NCBI RefSeq assembly: GCF_014784055.1
Contig: NZ_CP061813.1
Coordinates: forward strand, 521,501-585,500
Length of the DNA: 64,000 nucleotides
DNA from: Polaribacter haliotis
GTDB taxonomy: Bacteria; Bacteroidota; Bacteroidia; Flavobacteriales; Flavobacteriaceae
Direction of reading: 5' to 3'
Of the stretch, positions 51,193 to 55,679 are shown piece after piece. The position numbers and the translations under genes were made by a program. Position 1 is the first letter of the stretch. Each line of letters starts with the position of its first letter. The notes under the pieces were generated by a model that saw only the letters and a list, made by a program, of their open reading frames with translations, ran no database searches and had not been told where the DNA came from.

Positions 51193-51231
51193 CTCCGTTT
51201 GTAGAAATATTCTATAAACGGAGTTTTTTTT
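51193..51231 (+). terminator. Terminator of the btuB-btuG-like operon
   Basis: 14-bp stem ctccgtttgtagaa / ttctataaacggag, loop ata, one G-T pair, then eight or more T's. Confidence 0.9.
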
Positions 51232-51743
51232 TATAATAATTTTCTTACTTCACTTTTAATAAAGTCAATCGCAGTTTCTGTTGGTGGTAGAGATTTGGAA
51301 TAATCTATTAACACGTTCTCTCTTAAATCATTTGCAGAAGAAGAATTTTCTGCAACTTGTTTTAGTTTATTCATTACTGCATTTTTTGAAGCGTAAATGG
51401 CTGTCCAAGTATCTTCAGAAACGTAAATTTGTTGCACTAAATTGTGTTCAAATTCTTGTTCTATGTTTGCTATTAATAATTGTAAATAATCGTTTGTATT
51501 TGTAGAAATTGGTGGAATTCGCATCAATATTTTTACAGGGTTTATTCTGTCGCAAAAGAGCATTAAACGTTCGTAAGCTTGCAATTTAATAGGTAAAGCT
51601 TCTTTTTTTCTTTGTGCCAAAAGTTCTAATTGTTTTTCAGAATTTTTATTTTTGATGAATCCGTTAAACATGTAATAAGCAACAAAACCAGTTACTGCAG
51701 CTGGTAAAATATATGCGATGCTTTCTAAAATTTTATCTTCCAT
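51231..51743 (-). CDS. Flavobacterial membrane-anchored protein of unknown function
   Basis: A 170-aa protein with one transmembrane segment near the N-terminus (about 8-28, ILPAAVTGFVAYYMFNGF) and a cytoplasmic helical domain (ALPIKLQAYERLMLFCDRINP; DYLQLLIANIEQEFEHNLVQQIY; ENVLIDYSKSLPPTETAIDFIKSEVRKLL). I believe it is a conserved family in Flavobacteriia, but no function is known. Third gene of the SatD unit; starts 3 bp after the DUF3307 stop. Confidence 0.75.
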   Translation of the reverse strand: MEDKILESIAYILPAAVTGFVAYYMFNGFIKNKNSEKQLELLAQRKKEALPIKLQAYERLMLFCDRINPVKILMRIPPISTNTNDYLQLLIANIEQEFEHNLVQQIYVSEDTWTAIYASKNAVMNKLKQVAENSSSANDLRENVLIDYSKSLPPTETAIDFIKSEVRKLL

Positions 51744-51746
51744 AAA

Positions 51747-52466
51747 TTACATAAGAGTTACAAAATACGAATATAAGATTCCGATTATAATTGCCAACCC
51801 GAAACTTAATAAAGTACCAATTAAAATATATTCTGTTAGTTTTCTGTCTTTGGACGATGTTAAATCTCCAAACCTAAAAACCGACTTTGCTGCCAATAAA
51901 AAACCAATTGCTTCCCAATGATTTGTAATTACAAAAATAAAGACAAATAAACGTTCTAAAATACCAATATAACGTCCTGCTTTTGCAAGAGAATCGTCGT
52001 TTTCTTTTTTATTTTCAGGATTCCACTGTGTAATAAAAACTTTAATTATTACTGATGAAACGTTTGTTATCAAAAGGATTCCAATTAACAATAATAATAT
52101 TTTACGAGTAAAAAACTCATCAAAATTAAAATTGAACTTGGAGTATAAAGTAGCGACAAAAAACAAGGCCAAAAGATGTAAAACCTGGTCTATAAAAAAC
52201 CAAGTTCGTTTACTTTTTTTGTTTTGAAAAGTGAGTTTTAAAACATCAAAAATATAATGAGAAACTATAATTATTATAAAACTAAGCCAATATTCCTTCA
52301 AATTAAATTGAAGAAAAAATAGCAACAAAACAGCATGAACAGCAATATGAAAGTACAGTTTTACTGACTTAATTTTCTTTTGTTCTTTGTCTGTTACCCA
52401 TTTTTGGGGTTGAAAAACAAAATCTCCTAAAATATGTGCCAATAAAAGTTTTAAAAATAAAAGCAT
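51747..52466 (-). CDS. DUF3307 family membrane protein
   Basis: A 239-aa integral membrane protein with about six hydrophobic helices. The start LLLAHILGDFVFQPQKWVTDK (seen in two parts, LLLAHILGDFVFQP and KWVTDKEQ) is the DUF3307 signature. A second block, ERLFVFIFVITNHWEAIGFLLAAKSVFRFGDL, lies near the C-terminus. Function unknown. Its ATG overlaps the satD stop by one base, so the two are translationally coupled; the SatD-DUF3307 pairing recurs in other bacteria. Confidence 0.88.
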   Translation of the reverse strand: MLLFLKLLLAHILGDFVFQPQKWVTDKEQKKIKSVKLYFHIAVHAVLLLFFLQFNLKEYWLSFIIIIVSHYIFDVLKLTFQNKKSKRTWFFIDQVLHLLALFFVATLYSKFNFNFDEFFTRKILLLLIGILLITNVSSVIIKVFITQWNPENKKENDDSLAKAGRYIGILERLFVFIFVITNHWEAIGFLLAAKSVFRFGDLTSSKDRKLTEYILIGTLLSFGLAIIIGILYSYFVTLM

Positions 52467-53080
52467 TATTCGGTTATTTTTTGGTTGATTAATTTTCTAA
52501 AACGACTTTCCAGATTCATTATAGGATCGAAACCAGCTCGTTTTTGTCTTTCACTAACTCTACCTTGAGTTATTCCTAAAGTTTTTGCAATTTCTTTTTG
52601 GGTTGCTTCTCTATTTTCTATCGACAAATTAAAAACTTCTGCAGAATTTTGTGTCCAAGAATCTATGGTTAATGAGGCCAAATCTAACGCAATATTTATT
52701 TCTTCATCAATATCTTGCCAAGGCGTTTTTATGGCTAAATTTTGTTTTTTTAGATAATTATCAAATGCAAAACCAGAGTTTACAAAAGCTTCTCCATTAG
52801 ATGCTGTTATATTTGCATCTTCATACTTTTTTTCGCCTATTCCTATCCCAATTCTAACATCAATTCCTTCAATTCTTTTCAAATAAGATTTTAATTTTAA
52901 GGCTCCAAAAAATGCTTCTTCAGGGTTTTCTATTTCTAATTGAAAACTATCTCCTCTATATATCTGCCAATACTTTGGTGATTTTCCAAAACTAGAAAGT
53001 GCATTTTTTAAAGTTGATAACCATAAATCATCATCTTTCTTTCTAGAATTTATAATATCTCCAGTTAAAATACTTGTCAT
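52466..53080 (-). CDS. SatD-family protein with C-terminal helix-turn-helix
   Basis: A 204-aa protein. N-terminal SatD domain (MTSILTGDIINSRK; YRGDSFQLEI; IGIGIGEKKYEDANITASNGEAF) resembles a nucleotide-cyclase-like fold without obvious catalytic set. The C-terminal region about 155-185 is a helix-turn-helix (ATQKEIAKTLGITQGRVSERQKRAGFD), so it probably binds DNA. I start at the ATG 53080; an upstream in-frame TTG at 53101 overlaps the promoter -7 box (53099-53106), which lies upstream of the ATG. Three palindromes just upstream are its likely operators. Confidence 0.85.
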   Translation of the reverse strand: MTSILTGDIINSRKKDDDLWLSTLKNALSSFGKSPKYWQIYRGDSFQLEIENPEEAFFGALKLKSYLKRIEGIDVRIGIGIGEKKYEDANITASNGEAFVNSGFAFDNYLKKQNLAIKTPWQDIDEEINIALDLASLTIDSWTQNSAEVFNLSIENREATQKEIAKTLGITQGRVSERQKRAGFDPIMNLESRFRKLINQKITE

Positions 53081-53098
53081 TATTTTATAATTTATATT

Positions 53099-53129
53099 CA
53101 AATGTATGTTTTATTTATTAAAATAGCAA
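53099..53129 (-). promoter_or_regulatory. Promoter of the satD-DUF3307 unit
   Basis: Minus-strand TTG (53127-53129), exactly 20 bp, TACATTTG (53099-53106): a perfect Bacteroidota promoter. Initiation would fall about 10 bp before the ATG at 53080. Confidence 0.8.
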
Positions 53130-53132
53130 AAT

Positions 53133-53208
53133 TATCTGTCTATAAGCAGATATTTTAATTTATCTGTCTATAGGCAGATATTTTTGTTTATCTGTTTATG
53201 AGCAGATA
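53133..53208. promoter_or_regulatory. Three tandem 20-bp palindromes, 28-bp period (operator array)
   Basis: Copies at 53133-53152, 53161-53180 and 53189-53208, each TATCTG-N8-CAGATA. The middles (tctataag, tctatagg, tttatgag) are also alike. The first copy begins 4 bp upstream of the -33 element of the satD promoter. Spacing is exactly 28 bp from start to start. Confidence 0.85.
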
Positions 53209-53357
53209 AATTTGGAGTAAACTATGATAAAAATGAAACATTCTTTTTAAAATGAATATTGTCACTAATAACTTGTGAATAAAAAAGAACAATCATCCTT
53301 TAAAAAAACGAATACTTTGGCTAATTTCACGTTTTAAATTCTTCAAAATAAAATCTA

Positions 53358-55679
53358 TTGAATAGTTACTTAAATTCTTTAAACGAAGCTCAAAAACAAG
53401 CAGTTTTACAAAAAGATGGCCCAATGATTATTATTGCTGGTGCAGGTTCTGGTAAAACACGTGTATTAACTTACAGAATTGCTCATTTAATGAAACAGGG
53501 CGTAGATTCGTTTAATATTTTATCATTAACATTTACCAACAAAGCTGCCAAAGAAATGAAAGCAAGAATTGCTGGAGTAGTTGGTAATAGTGAAGCAAAA
53601 AACCTTTGGATGGGAACATTTCACTCGGTTTTTGCAAGAATTTTACGTTCGGAAGCAGATAAGTTGGGCTTTCCTTCAAATTTTACAATTTACGATTCAC
53701 AAGATTCTGTTCGTTTGATAACTGCAATTATTAAAGAAAAAAACTTAAATAAGGAACAATACAAGCCAAAACAGATTTTAAATAGAATATCTTCTTTTAA
53801 AAATAGTTTAATAACGGTTAGAGCATATTTTAATAATTCCGATTTACAAGAAGCAGATTTGCATGCTAGCAGACCAGAAGTTGGTAATATTTACAAGGAA
53901 TATGTAGATAGATGCTTTAAAGCTGGTGCAATGGATTTTGATGATTTATTGTTAAGAACCAACGAGTTATTAGCGCGTTTTCCAGAAACTTTAGCAAAAT
54001 ACCAAGATCGTTTTAGATATATTATGGTAGATGAGTATCAAGATACAAATCACTCGCAATATTTAATCGTAAAAGCGTTGGCAGATAAATTTGGTAATAT
54101 TTGTGTGGTTGGAGACGATTCTCAAAGTATTTATAGTTTTAGGGGTGCAAATATTCAGAATATTTTAAATTTTCAGAAAGATTATCCTGATGTTAAAACC
54201 TTTAAATTAGAGCAAAATTATAGATCTACAAGTAATATTGTAAATGCAGCAAACTCTGTAATAGCAAGAAATAAGACCAAATTAGATAAAGAAGTTTGGA
54301 CTTCTAACGACGCTGGAGATTCCATAAACGTAATGCGAACAATTTCTGATGGGGAAGAAGGGCGTTTTGTGGCACAATCTATTTGGGAAAATCAGATGAA
54401 TCATCAATTAAGTTCCGATAATTTTTGTGTTTTGTATAGAACAAATTCACAATCACGAGCTATTGAAGATGCTTTAAGAAAGAAAAATATAGATTATAAA
54501 ATTTACGGAGGAATTTCCTTTTATCAACGTAAAGAAATTAAAGACATCCTGTCTTACTTACGTATATTAATCAACCCAAATGACGAGGAAGCTTTAAAGA
54601 GAATTATAAATTATCCTGCAAGAGGAATTGGTGCAACAACCATAGACAAACTAACAATAGCAGCAAATCATTATAAAAAATCTATTTTCGATATTATAAA
54701 ATATATCGATAAAATTGATTTAAAAATAAATTCTGGAACAAAAAATAAGTTGCAGAATTTTATGAATATGATGTTGCGTTTACAAATAGAAGCAAAAACA
54801 AAAAATGCCTTCGAAATTGCAGAAACTGTTGTAAAACAAACACTTTTAATTAAAGATTTAGAAAAAGACGGAACACCAGAAGCTGTAAGTAAAGTAGAAA
54901 ATGTTCAAGAATTATTAAACGGAATTAAAGATTTTATTACAGATAAGATTGAAGAAGGAGAAGATGCATCTTTAACTACATTTTTAGAAGATGTTGCTTT
55001 GGCTACAGATTTCGATTCAGAAAAAAATGATGATAAACCAAGTGTTTCTTTAATGACCATTCACCAATCTAAAGGTTTGGAATATATGTATGTATATGTA
55101 GTAGGTTTAGAGGAAAATTTATTTCCATCTGCAATGAGCATGAATACCAGGAGTGAGTTGGAAGAAGAACGCAGGTTATTTTACGTGGCGTTAACCAGAG
55201 CAGAAAAAGTTGCTTATTTAACCTACGCACAAACACGTTATAGATGGGGAAAGTTGGTAGATGCAGAACCAAGTAGGTTTTTAGAAGAAATAGACGATCA
55301 ATATTTACATTATATAACACCAAAAGTACCAGAACCTTCTATAAATAGGTTTGTAGATAAAAGTATTTTCGATGATGCTCCAAAAGGAATTCGCTTTCAA
55401 AAACCAATTCAGCGTAAAAAAATGGAACGTGATTTGGCAAAAAAGAAAGAAATTATTGTTCCTAAAAACTTAAAAAAAGTTTCTCAAGTAGCAGCTAAAG
55501 CGAATCTATTTGATGGCAATATTTCTGTAGGTAATATCGTTGAACATAATAGATTTGGTAGTGGAGAAGTAATAGCTTTGGAAGGAAATGGACCTAATAA
55601 AAAAGCAGAAATTAAATTTGGTACAGTTGGTAAAAAGAAATTGTTATTACAATTTGCCAAATTAAGAGTGATTGGTTAA
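53358..55679 (+). CDS. uvrD: UvrD/PcrA-type DNA helicase
   Basis: A 773-aa superfamily 1A 3'-5' helicase. Walker A AGAGSGKT (27-34), motif Ia LTFTNKAAKEM, motif II VDEYQDTN, motif III VVGDDSQSIYSFRGA, motif IV LEQNYRST, motif V TIHQSKGLEY and motif VI VALTRAEK are all complete. The C-terminus has a Tudor-like domain about 715-773 (GNIVEHNRFGSGEVIALEG) as in PcrA. The start is TTG at 53358 (MNSYLNSLNEAQKQAV); no ATG fits. Confidence 0.95.
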   Translation: MNSYLNSLNEAQKQAVLQKDGPMIIIAGAGSGKTRVLTYRIAHLMKQGVDSFNILSLTFTNKAAKEMKARIAGVVGNSEAKNLWMGTFHSVFARILRSEADKLGFPSNFTIYDSQDSVRLITAIIKEKNLNKEQYKPKQILNRISSFKNSLITVRAYFNNSDLQEADLHASRPEVGNIYKEYVDRCFKAGAMDFDDLLLRTNELLARFPETLAKYQDRFRYIMVDEYQDTNHSQYLIVKALADKFGNICVVGDDSQSIYSFRGANIQNILNFQKDYPDVKTFKLEQNYRSTSNIVNAANSVIARNKTKLDKEVWTSNDAGDSINVMRTISDGEEGRFVAQSIWENQMNHQLSSDNFCVLYRTNSQSRAIEDALRKKNIDYKIYGGISFYQRKEIKDILSYLRILINPNDEEALKRIINYPARGIGATTIDKLTIAANHYKKSIFDIIKYIDKIDLKINSGTKNKLQNFMNMMLRLQIEAKTKNAFEIAETVVKQTLLIKDLEKDGTPEAVSKVENVQELLNGIKDFITDKIEEGEDASLTTFLEDVALATDFDSEKNDDKPSVSLMTIHQSKGLEYMYVYVVGLEENLFPSAMSMNTRSELEEERRLFYVALTRAEKVAYLTYAQTRYRWGKLVDAEPSRFLEEIDDQYLHYITPKVPEPSINRFVDKSIFDDAPKGIRFQKPIQRKKMERDLAKKKEIIVPKNLKKVSQVAAKANLFDGNISVGNIVEHNRFGSGEVIALEGNGPNKKAEIKFGTVGKKKLLLQFAKLRVIG

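Follow-up and report, generated by a model that had tools for sequence, protein, structure and literature searches.

We analysed a 64,000-nucleotide stretch of the Polaribacter haliotis genome (NZ_CP061813.1, positions 521,501 to 585,500; hereafter the window) and found a tandem array of palindromes in front of satD that, judging from how its letters vary with the SatD protein, is almost certainly bound by SatD itself. It is probable that the array is SatD's own operator lattice, on which SatD dimers would repress an in-register promoter under nucleotide control through the palm domain of the protein. The array comprises three exact copies of TATCTG-N8-CAGATA with a period of 28 bp (starts at 53133, 53161 and 53189) and adjoins a good satD promoter, both as described in an initial annotation made from the sequence:

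53133..53152, operator palindrome 1 (TATCTG-N8-CAGATA), nearest satD, centred at about -48 relative to the inferred start site of satD
53161..53180, operator palindrome 2, 28 bp further on, centred about -76 from the same site
53189..53208, operator palindrome 3, centred about -104, also lying in the spacer of a plus-strand promoter
53127..53129, minus strand, TTG, serving as the -33 box for satD, with 3 bp between it and palindrome 1
53099..53106, minus strand, TACATTTG, the -7 box for satD, keeping the phase of the 28-bp lattice (next slot)

The satD promoter has a 20-bp spacer between TTG and TACATTTG, with the satD ATG at 53080, and recurs in L016, a near-identical relative (offset 46, spacer 20). 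Its -7 box fits the flavobacterial sigma-A consensus TAnnTTTG, as given in PMC9723704. Within the array, the inner gap of each palindrome equals the linker between palindromes (8 bp), so that by simple arithmetic the half-sites reverse direction every 14 bp, or ~1.33 helical turns. Exact matches to TATCTG-N8-CAGATA occur at five sites in the whole 3.8-Mb genome, including the three in the window and two others likewise 28 bp apart (C1:3494362 and 3494390). The looser motif, with up to three mismatches, was not enriched within the window (37 found compared to 33.5 expected), and the signal therefore lies in the exact tandem array.

The array recurs beside satD in other genomes. When the upstream DNA of 80 satD loci (the best 80 of a longer list) was scanned for any period from 20 to 40 bp, the best period was exactly 28 in 71 loci; 66 loci beat dinucleotide shuffles at p ≤ 0.05, and 63 of these had period 28. 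A second set of 116 loci brought the total scored to 196, in which L016 stands for the window copy and eight pairs are the same locus taken twice, leaving 188 distinct loci. The best tandem palindrome, again with any period from 20 to 40 bp admitted, had a period of 28 or 29 bp at 170 of 196 loci (163 of 188 distinct), including 145 (138 distinct) at 28 bp and 25 at 29 bp, and the arrays held three copies in 114 cases, two in 23 and four to six in 33. Outside the 196 were three full-length-type matches (G323, G209 and G434), four short matches to the helix-turn-helix (HTH) domain only and the window's own copy. Based on the genome-wide rarity, the shuffle test and the recurrence at satD loci, we rejected a chance motif.

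Half-site letters varied between lineages, with 37 consensus spellings among the satD arrays, mostly TATnnn. The expectation that such palindromes would lie near other satD genes was thus borne out, although in letters that vary from lineage to lineage. Loci L044 and L153-L156 represent a period-29 lineage, in which the linker is 9 bp and the inner gap still 8 bp. No array at either period was detected at 26 of 196 loci (25 of 188 distinct). Twelve array-less loci (L220, L223, L224, L226-L230 and L232-L235) carry a SatD type with R172, and upstream DNA of R172-type loci is GC-richer (mean 0.50 versus 0.28); L027, L031, L049, L076 and L118 look like decayed arrays, 27-bp arrays or scan miscalls.

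A search of 97 genomes (that of the window included) revealed satD-like genes in 35. Within the genus, the tandem TATCTG pattern with up to two mismatches was present in 23 of 116 genomes, compared to none for a reversed control. The pattern stood beside satD in 22 of these 23 genomes; in the exception, G125 (locus L139), satD is gone, a fragment of the neighbouring DUF3307 gene is left and one of two palindromes is exact. Among 58 genus members, the tandem TATCTG array was present in 12 of 28 with satD and in 0 of 30 without it, and other satD-positive members have arrays spelled with other letters. A self-spreading mobile repeat, of the repetitive extragenic palindromic (REP) or miniature inverted-repeat transposable element (MITE) kind, would explain why one genome holds two clusters and why phages carry arrays (see below), but would not be expected to change its letters with the version of SatD or to be missing from the satD-lacking genus members. 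We also scanned 21 other genomes (one spelling each, up to three mismatches), of which 20 matched, 19 of these only at satD, and we give the mobile repeat almost no credence.

The identity of the binding protein is indicated by covariation between operator and protein. We paired all 204 SatD columns with every position of the half-site and computed the mutual information (MI) of each pair, using 144 loci thinned to <90% identity. The top covarying column was residue 177 (E177) for positions 4 and 6, residue 174 (R174) for position 5 and residue 172 (Q172) for positions 1 and 2, all three lying within the recognition helix of the AlphaFold model (172-181), and at position 3 no recognition-helix residue came top by MI or Z. 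With exceptions, a SatD with E177 usually has an operator with C in the fourth and G in the sixth place (TATCTG, TATCGG; ATTCGG); the spelling is TATTAG or TATAAG for Q177, mostly TATTCC or TATAAC for K177, mostly TATTAC for R177, and TATCAC, TATCAT or TATCGT for small residues following N173. In a partial Mantel test, residues 172, 173, 174 and 177 correlated with operator similarity given N-domain and rest-of-HTH identity (r = 0.533; largest r among 999 permutations, 0.094), compared to only 0.077 for operator and N-domain similarity given those helix residues. We assign the array to SatD because its letters covary with the recognition helix when kinship is controlled, which lends strong support to the autoregulation through SatD's own HTH that had been proposed at the outset; cooperative binding, part of the same proposal, fits the fixed spacing.

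These data also bear on two other explanations. The palindromes could be RNA hairpins, serving as an attenuator or terminator and changing between species by compensatory stem changes, given that pairing is kept by change on both sides and that some viral arrays sit in gaps between convergent genes. However, the satD transcript does not include the window array, which lies on the upstream side of the promoter; copies in one genome mostly share one spelling, the letters track HTH residues, stems need no 28-bp period, and patterns with an altered linker gave 0 viral matches. We therefore regard hairpins as highly improbable. Alternatively, a different regulator might bind a uvrD or SOS operator that merely adjoins satD. 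The helicase gene uvrD is divergent from satD here, the array in a prophage has a CI-like repressor gene as its neighbour and the viral array L276 abuts an SRAP gene. However, uvrD was found in the fetched flank of 22 of 80 first-set loci and not seen in 58, and 52 of these 58 were still best at period 28, an association with satD that further backs autoregulation. As the covariation also points to SatD residues, there seems very little chance that another regulator is responsible, and we rejected the array as a uvrD operator.

The promoter keeps a fixed relation to the lattice. Matches to TTG-N19-21-TAnnTTTG (42 promoters in 38 of 124 thinned 28-bp loci) had a -7 box starting at lattice phase 17-19 in 35 of 42 cases, and exactly at 18 in 31, the satD promoter shifting among lattice slots with its phase kept. 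Comparing in-phase consensus promoters by slot at 32 loci, we found the spacer to be the last palindrome in 12 and an earlier one in 8 (20 of 32 with a palindrome in the spacer), the slot ahead of the first palindrome in 2, with palindromes then downstream of the promoter, and the next empty slot in 10, including L016, which is the window's own layout. At three Kangiella loci, a palindrome is flanked by TTGACA or TTGATA and, at a spacing of 17 bp, by a -10-like box (two found by script, the third by eye), and the three Kangiella genomes have the array at satD only. A protein bound between the -33 and -7 boxes should block RNA polymerase, and because a palindrome fills the spacer in 20 of 32 loci, autorepression of satD-DUF3307 by SatD is favoured over activation and is likely.

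The window's own layout is less clear-cut: its promoter occupies an empty slot and the array stops just upstream of the -33 box. The initial annotation had correctly noted the latter position and taken it to favour activation over simple blocking, an argument that is weak in view of the spacer palindromes elsewhere and of the in-phase changes of slot. A promoter in the empty slot is compatible with repression through contact from the neighbouring slot as well as with activation. As an activator, SatD would recruit RNA polymerase from a site bordering the -33 box on its upstream side (centre about -48), in keeping with the ten loci whose promoter adjoins the array; the 20 spacer palindromes, the two loci with palindromes downstream of the promoter and the Kangiella promoters that straddle a palindrome all argue to the contrary. 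Activation is thus possible but not favoured, and on balance unlikely.

The locus around the array contains the following further features:

52466..53080, minus strand, satD, encoding a palm-fold N-domain (about residues 1-120) and a C-terminal HTH (recognition helix 172-181)
51747..52466, minus strand, DUF3307 membrane protein gene, overlapping satD by 1 nt and next to it in 80 of 80 first-set loci
51231..51743, minus strand, DUF7935 gene, 3 nt past the DUF3307 gene and likely in the same transcript
53358..55679, plus strand, uvrD/pcrA helicase gene, divergent from satD
53184..53214, plus strand, promoter TTG-N20-TAAATTTG facing uvrD, enclosing palindrome 3 in its spacer

In the uvrD-facing promoter, TTG (53184-53186) and TAAATTTG (53207-53214) are separated by 20 bp, and its full -7 consensus is repeated in few relatives only (by eye). 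Pfam matches bear out the annotated SatD protein with an HTH followed by DUF3307: SatD barely passed the cut-off of its family (PF16264, 30.1 bits against 29) and did so again in a genome-wide search (29.3 bits), its HTH is of the Sigma70_r4 type (PF04545, 32.4 bits against 24.1) and the downstream neighbour scored 103 bits with the DUF3307 profile. A single paper, PMC8504454, reportedly names DUF3307. The AlphaFold model of SatD (mean pLDDT 95.3) has HTH helices at 161-168 and 172-181. By computed comparison, its N-domain has the palm fold of the class III cyclase/GGDEF/Cas10 superfamily, and two aspartates are near-invariant (D8 in 192 and D44 in 195 of 196 loci), D8 following strand 1 and D44 in the hairpin of strands 2 and 3 when placed on the model by eye without superposition. 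SatD had no Pfam cyclase match. The SatD of L203 has lost both aspartates (K, N), and no array was detected there.

In the mechanism we propose, a SatD dimer would sit on each palindrome through its C-terminal HTH, residues 172, 173, 174 and 177 reading the half-site, with neighbouring dimers packed side by side on half-sites whose direction changes every 14 bp. Because the satD-DUF3307 promoter is in register with the lattice, occupation of the promoter slot or its neighbour would repress the operon. The palm, with D8 and D44 resembling a metal site, may act on a nucleotide, by binding or by converting it, and in this way tune SatD's hold on DNA, so that a nucleotide signal would permit expression of both SatD and the DUF3307 membrane protein, the latter being the putative effector. 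Autorepressors with repeated palindromic operators include phage repressors and antitoxins. Like these, satD belongs to a small two-gene operon encoding an HTH protein, with tandem palindromes that overlap or adjoin its promoter; unlike these, it has a conserved 28- or 29-bp lattice, an in-register promoter, widely varying letters and a sensor-like, cyclase-type palm.

Arrays also occur away from satD, mostly in viral sequences. The second genomic cluster (L236:7363-7410, equal to G000:C1:3494362-3494409) lies in a prophage with an integrase, a CI-like repressor and a terminase, between the CI-like repressor gene and a gene for a 175-aa protein with a signal-peptide-like start, 12 bp before the latter. 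In viral contigs, exact tandem patterns gave 2 matches for TATCTG (one holding this same prophage region), 15 for TATTAC (11 distinct) and 15 for TATCGG. Setting the linker to 12 bp left 0 matches for TATCGG and 0 for TATTAC, and the half-site TATGCG, which is not in use, also gave 0. Based on crude open reading frame (ORF) calls on the 27 distinct viral arrays and the two prophage ones, 14 lie between codirectional genes, 6 in convergent gaps and 4 between divergent genes, with 5 unassigned. Neither satD nor DUF3307 was found by tblastn in any of 34 array-bearing phage or prophage stretches, and we rejected a phage-borne copy of either as the source of the viral arrays. Annotated phages likewise contained no match to the window SatD or DUF3307 proteins at E ≤ 0.001. 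Four viral contigs encode a distant SatD, followed by a DUF3307 match in all four; L288, the one of these scanned for arrays, has its own 29-bp array. The scans of 21 genomes yielded one further non-satD site, in G232, between phage-like genes and just before a short lipoprotein-like ORF (both by eye). These arrays point to phages that seem to use or titrate a host regulator, SatD. Viral arrays in L274, L276, L277 and L280 lie near SRAP-like (SOS-associated peptidase) and DUF6965-like genes, of which one SRAP (L276) and one DUF6965 (L277) were matched to Pfam and the others judged by eye, and the array in L278:11671-12514 abuts a small gene followed by a SocA/Panacea-type antitoxin gene.

SatD-like genes were also found on five plasmids, with DUF3307 next in all four examined. 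The Vibrio lentus and Pseudoalteromonas plasmid SatDs (~26% identity) have 28-bp arrays in other letters, and no 28-bp array was seen for the Segatella and Sphingomonas ones; with Kangiella, the two gammaproteobacterial plasmids extend SatD-adjoining arrays beyond Bacteroidota. On the Sphingomonas insulae plasmid (L307), in this one case, SatD-DUF3307 directly adjoins a gene annotated as a Pycsar effector; a cyclase gene lies two genes further along, and the annotated neighbourhood includes adenylate/guanylate cyclase, TIR and ImmA/IrrE genes. Pycsar (cyclase plus effector) resembles SatD-DUF3307 in pairing a cyclase-related fold with a membrane protein, but, besides SatD's want of a Pfam cyclase match, neither protein had a credible PADLOC match (SatD, only a weak HTH match to mad1, E = 0.029; DUF3307, none), and we do not class the pair as Pycsar. 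Panoptes (OptS mCpol palm plus OptE membrane effector), as described in PMC12657218, shares with SatD a GGDEF/Cas10-kind palm, two aspartates and a membrane partner; unlike Panoptes, SatD has an HTH and DUF3307 had no significant PDB fold match. The main text of that paper does not mention SatD.

The SatD family (PF16264) is named after Streptococcus mutans satD (secretion and acid tolerance), and the parts available of two reports on SatD deal with acid tolerance and essentiality only (PMC11323703, PMC10326533). Our literature search, which covered subscription journals thinly, found no paper on SatD operators, SatD DNA binding or DUF3307 function. According to PMC11323703, S. pyogenes satD is essential yet present in 178 of 249 genomes, and being essential but accessory would be consistent with a gene whose product keeps a harmful partner in check. 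It is conceivable, though doubtful, that SatD-DUF3307 has so far escaped recognition as a module of nucleotide-signalling immunity or of an antitoxin-like kind, in which the palm enzyme is its own repressor on the 28-bp lattice and restrains a harmful membrane effector, and that phages place genes under SatD or soak it up with two-palindrome arrays spelled for the host's SatD type.

If the palm is active, SatD would unite in one protein a nucleotide enzyme and the transcription factor of its own gene. Across Bacteroidota, four helix residues go far to predict the six-base half-site, and the SatD targets of a genome could be predicted from its SatD sequence. A nearly unstudied protein family thus gains a concrete, testable job and a DNA code.
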